NCBI GenBank assembly: GCA_003647765.1
Contig: QMNM01000089.1
Coordinates: forward strand, 1 to 6,464
Length of the DNA stretch: 6,464 bases
Origin: Candidatus Cloacimonadota bacterium
GTDB lineage: Bacteria; Cloacimonadota; Cloacimonadia; JGIOTU-2; B8-G9
Direction of reading: 5' to 3'
Positions 1-6,404 of the stretch are shown piece after piece (position 1 is the first letter of the stretch; the number at the start of each line of letters is the position of its first letter). The position numbers were made by a program, and so were the translations under genes. The notes under the pieces were generated by a model. The model was not told the origin of the DNA, searched no databases, and saw nothing but the letters and a program-made list of their open reading frames with translations.

Positions 1-90
1 AAAAGAATGTTGATACTGTCAAATAGGAATATTTTGTTAGAAATTTTTTCGTGTTTCTTCGTGTTCTTCGTGGCTAACAAGAGTTCAAGA
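1..90 (+). repeat. Long direct repeat, copy A
   Basis: Bases 1-90 match 162-251 with one substitution (T at 56, C at 217), a 161-bp offset. Inside the unit is a short tandem of TTCGTGTTC-type words (48-73). The heptamer TTGTTAG (34-40) is the inverse complement of CTAACAA (74-80), so that tandem lies within an inverted pair. The right end runs into the octamer array. No open frame of note covers it. The window starts at the first base of the matching unit, so the repeat may extend further left; a contig break at the repeat is one possible reason. Confidence 0.9.
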
Positions 91-161
91 AAACAAGAGT
101 TCAAGAAAACAAGAGTTCAAGATTACAAGAGTTCAAGATGACAAGAGTTCAAGATGACAAG
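78..161 (+). repeat. Octamer (CAAGANNN) tandem array
   Basis: Ten consecutive 8-bp units fit CAAGANNN, plus a final CAAG. They alternate CAAGAGTT with CAAGAAAA, CAAGATTA or CAAGATGA, giving an apparent 16-bp period (78-93, 94-109, 110-125, 126-141, 142-157). The array fills the space between the two copies of the 90-bp repeat and has no spacers. The same family occurs in the opposite orientation at 6333-6404. It looks like a dispersed short tandem repeat; its function is unknown. Confidence 0.92.
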
Positions 162-251
162 AAAAGAATGTTGATACTGTCAAATAGGAATATTTTGTTA
201 GAAATTTTTTCGTGTTCCTTCGTGTTCTTCGTGGCTAACAAGAGTTCAAGA
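162..251 (+). repeat. Long direct repeat, copy B
   Basis: Second copy of the unit at 1-90, with one mismatch over 90 bases. It again carries the TTCGTG-word tandem (209-234) and ends in CAAGAGTT. After base 251 the copies diverge: copy A continues with the AAAA-type octamer, copy B with the ATGA-type octamer. Near identity suggests recent duplication or gene-conversion-like homogenisation. Confidence 0.9.
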
Positions 252-262
252 TGACAAGAGAG
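239..262 (+). repeat. Short octamer (CAAGANNN) tail after copy B
   Basis: Three octamers, CAAGAGTT, CAAGATGA and CAAGAGAG, follow copy B and are the end of the compound repeat. They are the same family as 78-161. Unique-looking sequence leading to the MCE gene begins after 262. Confidence 0.8.
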
Positions 263-325: not shown

Positions 326-1273
326 ATGAAATCAAAATCACAACGAATAAGATTAGGTATATTTATTACAATATCATCATCTATCTTGATTATAGTAATT
401 GCACTAATAACAGGAAGCAAACTCCTTCAGAAAAGAGACATTTATTATATCGCATACAAGGATGTTTCCATAAGTGGCTTGGAAATTGGGAACTCGGTAA
501 AGTATCATGGAATTAGAGTTGGCAGGATTGATGATATTAAAATTGACCCGAAAGATATTACAAGAGTAATTATTACAATTAGCGTTGAAGAAAATACGCC
601 TATAAAGGAAGATGTAGAAGCAATTGTGTCAATAATAGGTATAACTGGATTGAAATTGATAGAATTAACAGGTGGGTCAAATGAAGCGGAATTACTAAAG
701 CCAGGCTCATTTATCAAGCCAGGAAAGTCAACAATGGCAAATATCACTGGCAAAGCAGAAATCATATCAGAAAAAATTGAAATTATAGCTAATAATCTTT
801 CAGAAATTACAGGCGGCGAAAATAAGGATAAGTTCATTGAGTTGATTAACCGTATCAATATCACTCTAAAACAGGTTAATATTATATTAGCGGAAAATAG
901 AGAACCCATCAAATCTACAATTGATAATGTACAACAATTTTCAGAACAACTAAATATCTTAGGTGCTTCAACAAATCGTATATTAGTATCCCTGGATACC
1001 GTAATGATTAATATTAGTGAAATATCAAAGGATTTAAATCAAGCAGATATAGCAGATTTATTAAGTAATATCAATCAAACAGTACGAGAAATAGATAGGA
1101 CATTTACACATATTGATATGACTGTCCTTAAAGGCAGAAAAGATCTTATTCGTTCACTTGAACTAATGAAATATTCATTACAGAATCTCAATGAGTTTAG
1201 TAGGATGCTTACAGAAAATCCATCTATTATACTTAGAGGAACTGGTGACCAAAGAGCAAAAGAAAGGGAGTAA
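326..1273 (+). CDS. MCE-family (MlaD/PqiB-like) lipid-transport protein
   Basis: The 315-residue protein has one N-terminal membrane anchor (about residues 10-32) after a basic start. A single MCE domain follows (about 38-118), with the typical run VSISGLEIGNSVKYHGIRVG and the later ITGLKLIELTGG. A long helical, probably coiled-coil region (about 145-295) comes next. The C-terminal NPSIILRG resembles the short motif often found at the end of such proteins. Known family role: MCE proteins form periplasmic rings or tubes that carry phospholipids or other hydrophobic substrates between the membranes for an ABC transporter. The ATPase and permease are not in the window. It is first in a three-gene operon with a lipoprotein and an outer-membrane barrel. 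The ATG at 326 is chosen because it puts basic residues before the anchor; no strong Shine-Dalgarno precedes it. Substrate unknown; family call firm, exact subtype not. Confidence 0.92.
   Translation: MKSKSQRIRLGIFITISSSILIIVIALITGSKLLQKRDIYYIAYKDVSISGLEIGNSVKYHGIRVGRIDDIKIDPKDITRVIITISVEENTPIKEDVEAIVSIIGITGLKLIELTGGSNEAELLKPGSFIKPGKSTMANITGKAEIISEKIEIIANNLSEITGGENKDKFIELINRINITLKQVNIILAENREPIKSTIDNVQQFSEQLNILGASTNRILVSLDTVMINISEISKDLNQADIADLLSNINQTVREIDRTFTHIDMTVLKGRKDLIRSLELMKYSLQNLNEFSRMLTENPSIILRGTGDQRAKERE
1266..1270 (+). promoter_or_regulatory. Ribosome binding site of the lipoprotein gene
   Basis: GGGAG, at the very end of the MCE gene, lies 12 nt before the ATG at 1283 and 9 nt before an in-frame TTG at 1280. 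The spacing slightly favours TTG, the codon favours ATG. The choice changes only one residue. Confidence 0.5.
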
Positions 1274-1282
1274 AAAATTTTG

Positions 1283-1909
1283 ATGAAAAGATTTTTCACG
1301 CTTCACGCCTTACGCATTACGCCCTACGCATTATTGTTTTTATTTCTGATAAGTTGCGGCAAAACTTATTATAGTAATTATTACATATTAGATTATACTC
1401 CATCTATACCGGATAGTATAAAAATTTATCCACAACTGCCATATTATGTTGAAGTTAGTGATTTTGATATTTCTTTAACTTATGACCGTTCTGCTATTGT
1501 TATTCGGAATTCTTTACATCAGTTGAGATATAGTAGATATGATTTATGGGCATTACGGCCACAAGATGCTATACAGGATCTTTTATTAAAACACCTTAAA
1601 GAAGCGAACCTTTTTGCTGATGTAAAAAAAGAATTTTTGGATGTGCGTCCTGACTTTACTATTTTAGGACATATTTGTAATATTGAATTATATCATAGTG
1701 AAGGTATAAACAGAGCTGATATAGAGATGGAATTATCATTACAGGATAATCAAAATGAAAATATTGTAGTTTCATATCATTTTGTTCGCTACGAGAGATT
1801 GGATACACAAAATATGGCTTTTTTTGCTAAGAAGATTAGCGATATTCTTAAAGAGGAAAATAATAAATTTATCTTGAAAATAATCAAATACTTTGAGGAG
1901 CAGAGATAA
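1283..1909 (+). CDS. PqiC-like ABC transport auxiliary lipoprotein
   Basis: The 208-residue product has a type II signal peptide: basic start, hydrophobic stretch (about 16-24) and lipobox L-I-S-C with lipidated Cys25. The mature part opens with YYILDY (33-38), as in the ABC-transport auxiliary/PqiC (YmbA, DUF330) family, where a YYxLD-like strand is usual. It also has the family-like run RSAIVIRNSLHQLRYSRYDLWA (69-90 region), then a C-terminal alpha/beta region. Known PqiC is an outer-membrane lipoprotein that works with the MCE protein PqiB. Coming 9 nt after an MCE gene, this one probably does the same. An in-frame TTG at 1280 would add one residue. Oddly, residues 5-16 of the signal peptide are encoded by a five-unit heptamer repeat. 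Family call rests on motif and context; sequence divergence is high. Confidence 0.8.
   Translation: MKRFFTLHALRITPYALLFLFLISCGKTYYSNYYILDYTPSIPDSIKIYPQLPYYVEVSDFDISLTYDRSAIVIRNSLHQLRYSRYDLWALRPQDAIQDLLLKHLKEANLFADVKKEFLDVRPDFTILGHICNIELYHSEGINRADIEMELSLQDNQNENIVVSYHFVRYERLDTQNMAFFAKKISDILKEENNKFILKIIKYFEEQR
1295..1329 (+). repeat. Heptamer tandem repeat (NNYACGC x5) inside a signal-peptide coding region
   Basis: Five uninterrupted 7-bp units all fit NNYACGC (for example TTCACGC, ATTACGC, CCTACGC). They encode residues 5-16 of the lipoprotein, FTLHALRITPYA. The same family in reverse complement appears at 4287-4314 and 6244-6278. Confidence 0.9.
1895..1900 (+). promoter_or_regulatory. Ribosome binding site of the barrel-protein gene
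   Basis: GAGGAG lies 8 nt before the ATG at 1909 and inside the end of the lipoprotein gene. It is a near-ideal Shine-Dalgarno and fixes the start that overlaps the preceding TAA by one base. Confidence 0.8.
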
Positions 1910-3471
1910 TGATAAACAAACAACTAACAACTAACAACTACCATTTTTTTATTTTTTTATTTATATGGCTGTTAAATGTAGTTTTTGCAGATGCTGAAGC
2001 ATTGAATTATGATACCTGGCTTGCTCCATCACCTAATGAGCAATTTAATATTGAAGCTAAAGATGATTATAAAGGATTTGGAAGAATCTTTGTCCCTGTT
2101 ATGACAAATAAAGAATGGGAGCCAACTATTGATATTTATAAGGATAACAAATTAACTCATCTTGCAGAGAATATGGGCGAAAGTATATTCTTGGAAGCTG
2201 GCAATTATAAAATTGTATTTGGTAGTGGAATAACTGAGGAACAGAAAATTGTAAAGTATATAGAAGTCAAGCAGGAATGCACAGAAATTATACAAGTAGA
2301 TTGGTGTGGTTTAATTATCAGAATTATTGATGAATCAAGAAATTTTTTGAAAAAGAGCTACGAGCTATTTGATACTAAAACAGAAGATAGCTATGGCATT
2401 AAAATTAGTAAAGATGAGGATGAAATTGGCGAACATCCTGATACATGGATTTTGCCACCTGGACTGTACAAAATTACTACAGCAGGTGCTCCGTATAATA
2501 CTTTTACAAATTTTACTACTGTTAGACTTTTGCCTAATACATTAACACAATACACAATTGTTATAGATGGCTCATCTGGTGATTTGATTGGTGCTGGAAT
2601 TTTAAAAGAAATGGAAATGAAATTAGTGGAAAAAACACATTGGTCTACATATTCAGCATTACACAGTAGTGTCAATATAACAAGTGAGAATAAATCATCA
2701 AAAGAGAAATTTGATACAGATATTAATCTCTCTACTAAATTTGAAAATAGATTTCGCTATGAAACCAAAAAGCAATTCTTTTTATCAGAGCCATCTATTG
2801 AATTGGTATTAAGTAAAGAGGAACAAGCTAAATTACATATTAGCACAGATAAATTATTACTAAACAATATTTATATTTATTATTTTGTCCCTTTGATTGG
2901 TTTATATGGTCGCTTTGATGTAGAGACAAAACTATTTCCTGGAAAAATATATTATGATTCTAAACAGGATTCTATAATAAAAATCAGTAATGATGATACT
3001 AGGGAAGTGATTTACAATAAAGATGAAGTTAGTGTATCTCCAACTTTTTTCCCACTAATGTTGAAAGAAGGTTTAGGATTAAACTTCACTCCTATAAGGA
3101 CGAATAAGCTCAATTTCAGTATCAGAGCAGGATTAGGGCTTTGGCAGTATATAAGAAAAGATGTATTTGAAAGGAGTTCTGAATCAGATGTAATTTTTAA
3201 GGAAATAAATTCATCTTATATAAAGGGATTAGAGGTATCATCATCAGCTAATTTCCAACCTATACATAAATTATTATGGACTTTGAGAGTTGATATGCTT
3301 TTTCCATATACAGGAGATAAAGAACCTAATTATGAACTGAAAAATGTAATTAATTATCGTTTATTAAAATTTCTATCATTGGAATATAGATTTATCTATA
3401 AAAAAGAAGCCACTCGTGATTATGCTTGGATAGAAAATAATATCTGGTTAAGATTATCATACACTTTTTAA
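1909..3471 (+). CDS. Predicted outer-membrane beta-barrel protein with two N-terminal beta domains, MCE operon
   Basis: I do not recognise a named family for this 520-residue protein. It has a Sec signal peptide (hydrophobic about 12-26, likely cut after Ala27 or Ala29). Two beta-rich domains follow (about 59-130 and 131-220) that look like one duplicated unit. LEAGNYKIVFGSG then IEVKQECTEIIQVD in the first parallels LPPGLYKITTAGAP then VRLLPNTLTQYTIVID in the second; such turns resemble PEGA or carboxypeptidase-regulatory-like folds. From about 250 to the end, alternating polar and aromatic strands (for example INLSTKFENRFRYET, LNFSIRAGLGLWQY, LEYRFIYKKE) and the terminal WLRLSYTF are typical of outer-membrane barrels, ending in Phe. 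C124 and C133 could form a disulfide. It overlaps the lipoprotein stop by one base (TAATG), so it is translationally linked to the MCE genes; a role in envelope lipid transfer is inferred from context only. Confidence 0.75.
   Translation: MINKQLTTNNYHFFIFLFIWLLNVVFADAEALNYDTWLAPSPNEQFNIEAKDDYKGFGRIFVPVMTNKEWEPTIDIYKDNKLTHLAENMGESIFLEAGNYKIVFGSGITEEQKIVKYIEVKQECTEIIQVDWCGLIIRIIDESRNFLKKSYELFDTKTEDSYGIKISKDEDEIGEHPDTWILPPGLYKITTAGAPYNTFTNFTTVRLLPNTLTQYTIVIDGSSGDLIGAGILKEMEMKLVEKTHWSTYSALHSSVNITSENKSSKEKFDTDINLSTKFENRFRYETKKQFFLSEPSIELVLSKEEQAKLHISTDKLLLNNIYIYYFVPLIGLYGRFDVETKLFPGKIYYDSKQDSIIKISNDDTREVIYNKDEVSVSPTFFPLMLKEGLGLNFTPIRTNKLNFSIRAGLGLWQYIRKDVFERSSESDVIFKEINSSYIKGLEVSSSANFQPIHKLLWTLRVDMLFPYTGDKEPNYELKNVINYRLLKFLSLEYRFIYKKEATRDYAWIENNIWLRLSYTF
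1921..1941 (+). repeat. Heptamer tandem repeat (CAACTAA x3) at the start of the barrel gene
   Basis: Three heptamers (CAACTAA, CAACTAA, CAACTAC) give 21 nt, exactly seven codons, encoding QLTTNNY (residues 5-11) just before the hydrophobic core of the signal peptide. The same family occurs in the same orientation at 4430-4457 in front of etfB. Confidence 0.88.
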
Positions 3472-3568: not shown

Positions 3569-4327
3569 ATGCGTATAAATAAATTTTTAGCAAAATGTAG
3601 CCTGGGCTCAAGAAGAGCGGTAGAGAAACTTATCCTTAAAGGAGAAATAAGTGTAAATGGCAAAATAATCAAAAATTTGGCAACACAGATTGACACTGAA
3701 AAAGATAAGGTATTTTACAATAATAAACTATTAAAAATCCATCAAGAAAATGTCTACATAATAGTAAATAAACCAGCAAAATATTTAGTAACTACAAAAG
3801 ATCCTTACAATCGGAAAACGATTTTTGACTTACTGCCTAATTTTTCCAATGGCATAAATCAGCGATTATTTCCTGTTGGCAGACTTGATTATAAGTCCGA
3901 AGGATTGCTACTATTAACAAATGATGGTGAATTTGCTAATCAGATTATACATCCTAAATATAAGTTAGAAAAGGTCTATAAAGTGAAAGTAAAAGGTAAA
4001 ATTGATAACCGTTCACTCTGGCTTTTACGAAAAGGTATTGATTTAGATGGCAAAAAAACTTTACCAGCAAAAGTATTCATTAATAGTTATAATCCAAAAA
4101 ATGATATTACAAGTATGAAAATAACTATCTATGAAGGACGGAATAGACAAATACGAAGAATGGTAAAATCAATTGGCTTTAATGTGCTGGCTCTTAAAAG
4201 AGTGCAAATAGGAGGAGTAAATTTAGGAAATTTGCCAGTAGGAGCATGGAGGTTTATGAAACATAAAGAGATAAGAAGATTGATGAGCGAAAAGCATAGT
4301 GCGAAGTGCGATTATAAATCAAGATAA
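3569..4327 (+). CDS. RsuA/RluB-family rRNA pseudouridine synthase
   Basis: The 252-residue enzyme should convert a uridine in ribosomal RNA to pseudouridine. An S4 RNA-binding domain fills about residues 1-50 (MRINKFLAKCSLGSRRAVEKL). The catalytic domain begins with YIIVNKPAKYLV, and catalytic Asp107 lies in GRLDYKSEGLLLLTNDG, the RsuA/RluB/E/F form of the motif. EGRNRQIRRM (189-198) is the conserved C-terminal strand motif and LPVGAWR follows. With an S4 domain and this length it fits RluB (large-subunit target) slightly better than RsuA, but the target base cannot be read from sequence. The ATG at 3569 is chosen because it begins the S4 domain. An in-frame TTG at 3482 would add 29 residues translated from a repeat-rich spacer; neither start has a clear Shine-Dalgarno. 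The last residues (about 240-249) are encoded by a heptamer repeat. Confidence 0.93.
   Translation: MRINKFLAKCSLGSRRAVEKLILKGEISVNGKIIKNLATQIDTEKDKVFYNNKLLKIHQENVYIIVNKPAKYLVTTKDPYNRKTIFDLLPNFSNGINQRLFPVGRLDYKSEGLLLLTNDGEFANQIIHPKYKLEKVYKVKVKGKIDNRSLWLLRKGIDLDGKKTLPAKVFINSYNPKNDITSMKITIYEGRNRQIRRMVKSIGFNVLALKRVQIGGVNLGNLPVGAWRFMKHKEIRRLMSEKHSAKCDYKSR
4287..4314 (-). repeat. Heptamer repeat (NNYACGC family, reverse orientation) at the 3' end of the pseudouridine synthase gene
   Basis: Four 7-bp units, GCGAAAA, GCATAGT, GCGAAGT and GCGATTA, are degenerate inverse complements of the family seen at 1295-1329. They encode about residues 240-249 of the enzyme, after its last conserved motif, so the tail EKHSAKCDY is repeat-derived. 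The stop follows at 4325. Confidence 0.7.
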
Positions 4328-5283: not shown

Positions 5284-6263
5284 GAAAAGATATTTTTGTA
5301 TTGGTTGAACATAGAAAGGGTGAAATAAGAGATATTACTTTTGAACTATTAACAAAAGCCAGAAATATGGTGCAAACTGGTGGATTTGTTTATGCAATTG
5401 TTCTTGCCAAAAATGGAGATAATTTTATAGAGAAGTTAAAATCAGAAGCACATAGAATCTTATGTATTGAAAATGAGAAACTTGAGCATTTTCATTCAGA
5501 TTATTATCAGCAAGTGCTTGGTTCTATAATCACTGATAGAAAGCCATTGCTTACATTATTTGGACAGACATCGTACACTATGGATATTGCACCATCTTTG
5601 GCAGTGCAACTTGATTTACCTATTGTTATGGGCTGTATAGAATTTGAAATTGGTGATGATAAAATCTTTACAATAAATCAAGTATATGGTGGAAAGATAC
5701 ATACTCGGTTTTCATTTCCATCTAAAAATGGTGGAATAATTTCCATTCAGCCTGGCACTTTCACTGCTGAACAAGGTGATTTATCTGCTGAAATTGAGAG
5801 AATCACTTTTTCATTTGAGGAAATTACTAATAAAAAATTTATCCAATTTGTAGAAGCAGTTGCAGGTGAGATTGATATTACACAAGCAGAGAAAATTGTA
5901 GCAATTGGTAGAGGTATCAAAGAGAAGGATAATTTACAGATAATAGAGGATTTTGCTGAATCCATAGGTGCTGTTGTTGCTTGTTCAAGGCCCATTGTAG
6001 ATGCTGGATGGCTACCAAAAGAAAGGCAGGTCGGTTCATCAGGAAAAACTGTGAAACCAAAACTTTATATTGCTCTCGGCATAAGTGGTGATTTCCAACA
6101 TTTAATCGGAATGAGAAATGCTGACACAATCATTGCTGTAAATAAAGACCCTAATGCACCAATATTCGGCATTGCTGACTATGGCATTGTTGATGACTTA
6201 TTAAAAATAGTCCCAGCATTAAAAAAGAAAATTATGGAGAAATGCGAAGCGCGTAGCGCGTAG
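5280..6263 (+). CDS. etfA: Electron transfer flavoprotein alpha subunit
   Basis: The 327-residue subunit binds the mobile FAD of the ETF heterodimer. The N-terminal alpha/beta domain (about 1-190) is divergent; the C-terminal FAD domain is well conserved: GRGIKEKDN (210-218), SRPIVDAGWLP (236-246), QVGSSGKTV (250-258), ALGISGDFQHLIGM (265-278), NKDPNAPIFGIADYG (288-302). Compared with the common QVGQTGK and GISGAIQH, this protein has SS for QT and DF for AI near the flavin. The start overlaps the etfB stop; AAAGGGG (5268-5274) is its ribosome site. It ends in KKKIMEKCEARSA; the last residues and the TAG stop are supplied by a heptamer repeat beginning at 6244, beyond the usual family end. No extra iron-sulfur domain is present. 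Confidence 0.95.
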   Translation: MRKDIFVLVEHRKGEIRDITFELLTKARNMVQTGGFVYAIVLAKNGDNFIEKLKSEAHRILCIENEKLEHFHSDYYQQVLGSIITDRKPLLTLFGQTSYTMDIAPSLAVQLDLPIVMGCIEFEIGDDKIFTINQVYGGKIHTRFSFPSKNGGIISIQPGTFTAEQGDLSAEIERITFSFEEITNKKFIQFVEAVAGEIDITQAEKIVAIGRGIKEKDNLQIIEDFAESIGAVVACSRPIVDAGWLPKERQVGSSGKTVKPKLYIALGISGDFQHLIGMRNADTIIAVNKDPNAPIFGIADYGIVDDLLKIVPALKKKIMEKCEARSA

Positions 6264-6278
6264 TGCGTAGTGCGAAAA
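6244..6278 (-). repeat. Heptamer tandem repeat (NNYACGC family, reverse orientation) overlapping the etfA stop
   Basis: Units GCGAAGC, GCGTAGC, GCGTAGT and GCGTAGT, plus the degenerate GCGAAAA, run without gaps from 6244. GCGTAGT is the inverse complement of ACTACGC, so this is the 1295-1329 family turned round. In the etfA frame it encodes EARSA and then the TAG stop at 6261-6263. Confidence 0.88.
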
Positions 6279-6332
6279 TTTATAAATAGAGAATAAAAAT
6301 TCAGAAACTATATATTCTTCATTGCCCCATTG

Positions 6333-6404
6333 TCTTCTTGTTTTCTTGAACTCTTGTCTTCTTGTTTCCTTGAACTCTTGTCTTCTTGTTTTCTTGATCT
6401 CTTA
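6333..6404 (-). repeat. Octamer (CAAGANNN) array in reverse orientation before the amidohydrolase gene
   Basis: Eight clean 8-bp units fitting NNNTCTTG (one reads TTTCCTTG) fill 6333-6396, with a ninth degenerate unit to 6404. They form a 24-bp higher-order pattern of TCTTCTTG, TTTTCTTG and AACTCTTG. This is the reverse complement of the array at 78-161; bases 6336-6357 match 77-98 perfectly (22 bp). The array ends only 5 nt before the next gene's ATG. The preceding spacer (6279-6332) shows nothing recognisable. Confidence 0.9.

Follow-up and report, generated by a model that had tools for sequence, protein, structure and literature searches.

Does an MCE transport system of the Cloacimonadota carry an outer-membrane part of its own? 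The question is raised by three tandem genes of Candidatus Cloacimonadota bacterium, which in the list of open reading frames (ORFs) span 326-3471 of contig QMNM01000089.1. The stretch that we analysed, called the window here, is this entire 6464-bp contig (C115) of a 1.97-Mb draft genome with a completeness of 88.8%. A reading made from the window alone, the original prediction, took the three genes to encode an MCE protein, a PqiC-like lipoprotein and an outer-membrane barrel protein, and the ORFs, Pfam, AlphaFold2 and fold searches confirm this trio. Its features are as follows.

326..1273, + strand: MCE (MlaD-type) protein, 315 aa, with an N-terminal transmembrane (TM) helix, one MCE domain and C-terminal helices
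467-676, + strand: MCE domain, residues 48-117 (Pfam MlaD PF02470, E=1.9e-13, above the curated cut-off)
1283..1909, + strand: PqiC-like outer-membrane lipoprotein (ABC_trans_aux), 208 aa from ATG, lipobox LISC
1909..3471, + strand: outer-membrane barrel protein, 520 aa, with a signal peptide, two beta-sandwich domains and a 14-strand barrel
2077..2616, + strand: periplasmic module of the barrel protein, residues 57-236, two beta domains (AlphaFold2)
2635..3468, + strand: barrel domain, residues 243-520, related to DUF481/DUF3078 (AlphaFold2, Foldseek, VIA-align)

The lipoprotein starts at the ATG at 1283, with a TTG at 1280 as a possible alternative, and the predicted 1-nt overlap is present: the ATG of the barrel gene shares one nucleotide with the lipoprotein stop (TAATG, 1907-1911). 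A promoter scan over the trio region gave fewer hits than shuffled sequences did. We conclude, with a probability of about 0.78, that the trio belongs to an Mpc-like (MlaEFD plus PqiC) lipid transporter that spans the envelope and whose lipoprotein collar is tethered to a dedicated outer-membrane barrel. The earlier claim of an envelope-spanning MCE system with its own outer-membrane part is supported by conservation, by linkage to MlaE and MlaF and by gene fusion.

We examined conservation across the phylum, which lies within the Fibrobacterota-Chlorobiota-Bacteroidota (FCB) group (NCBI), in 103 genomes that are each at least 80% complete, 70 of them high-quality. The GTDB species records fetched were Candidatus Cloacimonadota, save three differently labelled metagenome-assembled genomes (MAGs) and one Tenebribacter MAG. 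A search seeded with the window barrel protein alone found no relatives, and a 20-sequence alignment was too diverse to serve as a seed; a tighter alignment of fused lipoprotein-barrel proteins worked. A first search detected the barrel protein in 36 of 40 relatives; of the 103 phylum genomes, 98 carry it (68 of the best 70), a few of the 98 on weak matches only. Because 98 of 103 genomes have it, we rejected the possibility that the barrel gene is a chance neighbour.

The usual gene order is MCE, lipoprotein plus barrel, MlaE (with a STAS domain) and MlaF. Among 68 barrel loci examined, with some genomes counted twice, 55 were complete: 44 read MCE-FUSED-MlaE-MlaF and 11 read MCE-lipoprotein-barrel-MlaE-MlaF. 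Most of the remaining 13 miss members at contig ends, and at every examined locus, the window included, the barrel gene adjoins some other member of the transporter. The conserved neighbourhood on which the original prediction depended is thus found, since the trio is kept phylum-wide and linked to MlaE and MlaF. These two genes had been expected upstream; they are indeed linked to the trio in relatives, but they lie downstream of it, and in the window genome they are on other contigs.

In most genomes the lipoprotein and the barrel are a single protein of ~700 aa, in which a lipobox, an ABC_trans_aux domain, ~30 disordered residues, two beta domains and the barrel follow one another. Scored by an open frame of at least 640 aa, the fusion occurs in 76 of the 95 strong barrel hits across the phylum. 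Fused proteins match both ABC_trans_aux and DUF481, their lipid-attachment Cys is invariant (23 of 23 aligned), and the separate window lipoprotein aligns over its full length with their N-terminus (29% identity, E 1e-22). In a tree of barrel proteins, fused and separate forms are split by a single branch (support 92, root untested), a pattern that a single fusion or fission event suffices to explain. That most relatives have the fusion argues strongly for the barrel as a component of the MCE machine. One genome (G005, locus L047), in the same order as the window genome, carries a fused form within the otherwise unfused family f2; this form branches with fused proteins of other families, and gene transfer, misplacement or contamination are the alternatives.

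AlphaFold2 modelled a 706-aa fused protein from 23 rows with a predicted local distance difference test score (pLDDT) of 80.5 and a predicted template-modelling score (pTM) of 0.44, indicating that the domains are well modelled but their mutual arrangement is not. In VIA-align, model residues 24-201 matched PqiC homologues (6osx, Z 20.1, 1.8 Å over 153 residues; PqiC 8q2c, Z 19.4), and residues 418-705 matched Tsx, NanC and OMPLA-type barrels at Z 11-15 (Tsx Z 15.2).

Is the third protein of the window itself a barrel? Taken alone, it gave no confident family match in Pfam and other profile scans, DUF481 included. Within the 24-member barrel-family alignment, DUF481 was matched by 22 members at E<=0.01 (best 2.9e-12, several above the cut-off) and DUF3078 by 20. 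We take DUF481 to be an outer-membrane barrel family. Since a barrel-family profile gave chance matches only against PDB sequences, a comparison of folds was needed. From a 24-row alignment, AlphaFold2 modelled the window protein at pLDDT 76.8, with 14 strands across residues 245-519 mostly at pLDDT 80-90, so that a barrel is predicted where the original prediction had placed it, in residues 250-520. The best Foldseek matches listed were outer-membrane barrels throughout. Tsx led in VIA-align (Z 15.0, 205 residues aligned, 3.7 Å), followed by NanC, KdgM, EstA, OmpG and OMPLA at Z 11-13. The predicted barrel has ~14 strands; among the fold matches listed, Tsx, NanC and OMPLA came nearest and LptD did not appear, which does not by itself exclude a relation to LptD.

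The pattern of hydrophobic residues is consistent with this fold. Using family-averaged residues, with the model supplying strand limits only, we found an inside/outside hydrophobic alternation of 2.75 in the barrel strands versus 1.24 +/- 0.25 after shuffling (0 of 2000 shuffles as high), and no such alternation in the strands of the periplasmic module. The second beta domain of that module (residues 129-233) resembles a transthyretin-like fold (8uw4, Z 9.5, VIA-align). In fused forms the module stands between the PqiC-like domain and the barrel, and it would thus be a spacer or a dock on the lipoprotein side. Of the earlier idea that this N-terminal module docks on the MCE tube or on the lipoprotein, it is the placement on the lipoprotein side that the fused forms favour.

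The fold matches are to generic small porins and enzymes (Tsx, NanC, OMPLA), which would suit an ordinary porin- or adhesin-like protein that hitch-hikes in the operon and is fused for sorting only. No catalytic or substrate motif was identified in the barrel, and stand-alone barrel relatives (DUF3078, ~300 aa) occur elsewhere in the same genomes. We nevertheless consider a hitch-hiker improbable, given conservation in 98 of 103 genomes, linkage to MCE and MlaE genes, a single fusion or fission event retained across families, and a periplasmic module conserved at least as well as the barrel. The stand-alone proteins, exemplified by L123:257-1150 and L124:5073-5957, are barrel-like, ~300 aa long and weakly related to the barrel domain; they are encoded away from MCE genes in several genomes, and the one at L123 matches DUF3078.

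The lipoprotein is the partner to which the barrel would be tethered. In the window it matches Pfam ABC_trans_aux at E=6e-9, above the curated cut-off, and its lipobox occupies residues 22-25, with the codon of the lipidated Cys at 1355-1357. A lipoprotein-family profile compared with solved structures matched XCC0632 (2iqi) and PqiC (8q2c) and, more weakly (E 0.043), the lipoprotein of 13hr/13hs. For this homologous system the chain tables list 8 MCE chains for 13hr and, for 13hr and 13hs together, 16 lipoprotein chains; an MCE protein and an ABC_trans_aux lipoprotein of these families thus share one PDB entry. The Pfam match above cut-off, the lipobox and the PqiC fold, found in the window and in fused relatives, place the protein in the ABC_trans_aux/PqiC class. 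At one locus (L045:8287-8898, G027:C31), a LolA-like gene, recognised by eye, stands after an FtsK gene and directly before lipoprotein-barrel-MlaE-MlaF, a neighbour in keeping with an outer-membrane lipoprotein.

The MCE protein begins with a hydrophobic stretch that, from its sequence, is a TM anchor. Its residues 2-305 align with the MCE chain of 13hr (E 7.2e-20) and residues 192-303 match the end of the PqiB model (E 1.7e-7); the long helical C-terminal region resembles the PqiB needle and may form one. An MCE domain, a TM anchor and, in relatives, adjacent MlaE and MlaF identify an MCE transport system, and the single MCE domain sets it apart from the three-MCE PqiB type. A barrel on the MCE protein itself, of the Veillonella type, was rejected: the 315-aa chain ends after the helices and leaves no room.

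MlaC (PF05494) and MlaA (PF04333) were found in 0 of the 103 genomes by searches that were positive in E. coli and Caulobacter, and a strict E. coli-type Mla system was therefore rejected. No recognisable MlaA can therefore provide the outer-membrane end, for which the lipoprotein-barrel unit is the obvious candidate. Among solved structures, the MlaE homologue matches permeases of phospholipid transporters. We consider it rather unlikely that the cargo is a glycolipid or another phylum-specific lipid instead of phospholipids; the match of MlaE weighs against this, though it does not fix the substrate. MCE systems do carry diverse lipids, as in mycobacterial Mce, and the sequence reveals neither substrate nor direction.

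How might these parts work together? In Brucella abortus, the Mpc system (MpcE/F/D/A) combines MlaE(STAS)/F/D with a PqiC-like lipoprotein and is modelled as an envelope-spanning tunnel; complex formation and a role in lipid transport are known for the Brucella system only (PMC12436622). The Cloacimonadota have the same list of parts: an MlaE with an N-terminal STAS domain, MlaF, a single-MCE protein with a long helical C-terminus that is probably of needle type, and a PqiC-like lipoprotein, again with no MlaC. The Brucella operon has four genes and no described barrel, whereas the Cloacimonadota barrel adjoins the lipoprotein or is fused to it. In E. coli, the PqiC octamer receives the PqiB needle (PMC10897342). 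PqiABC shares with our system an MCE needle and a PqiC outer-membrane lipoprotein (fold match Z 19-20), but PqiB has three MCE rings, PqiA takes the place of an ABC transporter and there is no barrel (PMC10897342).

The core mechanism that we propose is modelled on Brucella Mpc and on the PqiC octamer with its PqiB needle. MlaE with its built-in STAS domain and MlaF would be the ATP-driven engine of the transporter. The MCE protein would form a ring anchored in the inner membrane, with its C-terminal helices as a needle across the periplasm, and the PqiC-like lipoprotein would be the collar that receives this needle at the outer membrane. The barrel protein, joined to the collar via its two beta-sandwich domains (covalently in most relatives), would embed the collar in the outer membrane and supply the outer-membrane end of the route, replacing MlaA/MlaC. 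Gene content, fusion, conservation, predicted folds and the absence of MlaA and MlaC are direct observations; we infer needle docking, lipid as the substrate and the direction of transport. We lean towards the barrel as an anchor or gate at the outer membrane over the barrel as a wide conduit.

A true lipid conduit or retrieval device, in which lipids would pass through or along the barrel between needle and outer leaflet, is possible, if well short of an even chance. Such a device could resemble the MlaA-OmpC or LptDE translocon, and the PqiC-like domain would be its plug or collar. It would suit the absence of MlaA and MlaC, the near universality of the barrel gene in the phylum, and the structural similarity of PqiC to LptE (PMC10897342) and PelC, which are partners of the barrels LptD and PelB (PelBC: PMC12141448). 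The barrel, however, has ~12-14 predicted strands, like Tsx and OmpG, and unless it can open laterally it would be tight for a phospholipid; the Veillonella MlaD barrel met with the same objection (PMC10665443). Still more tentatively, the lipoprotein-barrel fusion might build an oligomeric outer-membrane translocon that passes lipids between needle and outer leaflet, either as a ring of barrels or as a barrel-crowned PqiC collar, a dedicated outer-membrane gate for the MCE tunnel.

Several points weigh against an Mpc-like transporter with a tethered barrel. In the window genome, MlaE lies on contig C5 amid unrelated genes and the closest MlaF (64% identical) on contig C149, both unlinked to the trio. 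In G027 the MCE gene is elsewhere while lipoprotein, barrel, MlaE and MlaF stand together, and in G008 the barrel gene is found with MlaE, with no lipoprotein or MCE gene seen alongside. The models are of single chains, and the one of the fused form leaves the placement of its domains uncertain (pTM 0.44). If fused chains assembled into an octamer as PqiC does, eight barrels would face six MCE subunits. This mismatch is awkward and could mean that the barrel plays only an incidental part in lipid passage; the stoichiometry of collar, barrels and MCE subunits is the main puzzle. Finally, the Cloacimonadota system is known from genes and predicted folds, from which we infer lipid transport.

The original prediction also held that a barrel is not standard in such systems. 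This has to be qualified in view of the precedents of the Veillonella MlaD barrel (PMC10665443) and of PelC/PelB (PMC12141448). MlaEFD of Veillonella parvula likewise lacks MlaA/MlaC and brings an outer-membrane barrel of its own to an MCE system. In that species the MCE protein bears the barrel and a lipoprotein has no part in it, whereas the Cloacimonadota barrel is on the lipoprotein side; the Veillonella barrel is considered too narrow to let a phospholipid through (PMC10665443). In PelBC, a lipoprotein of related fold sits on an outer-membrane barrel, a ring of twelve PelC lipoproteins being mounted on one PelB (PMC12141448; PDB 9h80). PelBC differs in being a polysaccharide exporter with twelve PelC per PelB and no MCE protein or ABC transporter. 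The chloroplast TGD1-4 system has the MCE protein TGD2, the ABC parts TGD1/3 and the outer-envelope barrel TGD4, with no lipoprotein. LptD is far larger as a barrel, differs in its periplasmic parts and has no MCE partner. LptDE is nonetheless a lipid-related barrel translocon, and LptE is structurally similar to PqiC (PMC10897342).

Judged by titles and abstracts, and outside bioRxiv and most subscription journals, the literature held nothing relevant that joins Cloacimonadota with MCE systems, and nothing that joins ABC_trans_aux with MCE. Within that same part, the searchable papers contain no description of a fusion between lipoprotein and barrel, or of an Mpc-type MCE operon that also encodes a barrel. 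The component parts and their logic are already known.

Most genomes of the phylum also encode a second MCE protein of ~300 aa, which in some cases has an MlaF of its own. A ~1000-aa protein lies beside its gene in 6 of 6 loci read (L117:4867-9439 on G004:C1, L116:1925-5856, L118, L119, L122 and L125); the locus in the window genome is G000:C193:431-3517. Two of the ~1000-aa proteins were scanned and read Peptidase_MA (Peptidase_MA_2), PD40 beta-propeller and Omp85 (PF01103, E 1.5e-16), and a ~1000-aa Omp85 protein is present in 102 of the 103 genomes. With the second MCE gene beside an Omp85 protein, two separate MCE systems of the phylum appear to be paired with outer-membrane barrels, and the second pairing looks independent of the trio system.

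The other genes of the contig encode an RsuA-type pseudouridine synthase and EtfB/EtfA, unrelated to the trio. The contig ends (window 1-262 and 6330-6403) carry repeats, namely 16-bp tandem units TAACAAGAGTTCAAGA and a longer direct repeat whose segment begins AAAAGAATGTTGATACTG; the units at the downstream end are the reverse complement of those at the upstream end. These repeats may explain the assembly break at the window ends. Short repeat-like sequences (cttcacgccttacgcattacgcc; aacaactaacaacta; gtagtgcgtagtgcg) lie at 1299-1333, 1917-1940, 4270-4322 and 6245-6275. In the lipoprotein and barrel genes they extend into the codons of the signal peptide, and in the genes for the pseudouridine synthase and EtfA into the 3' ends, which gives the impression of intergenic repeats that have turned coding.

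The system bears on the contact of MCE tunnels with the outer membrane, for which E. coli has a well-studied docking protein in PqiC. A survey found the MlaD barrel absent in members of the FCB and Planctomycetota-Verrucomicrobiota-Chlamydiota (PVC) groups (PMC10665443), and the barrel of the Cloacimonadota, an FCB phylum, fills the gap left by that result. With a PqiC-like domain and a barrel in one protein, collar and outer-membrane part are fixed together, which makes the fused protein a natural construct for structural work and suits it to asking whether lipid passes through the barrel.

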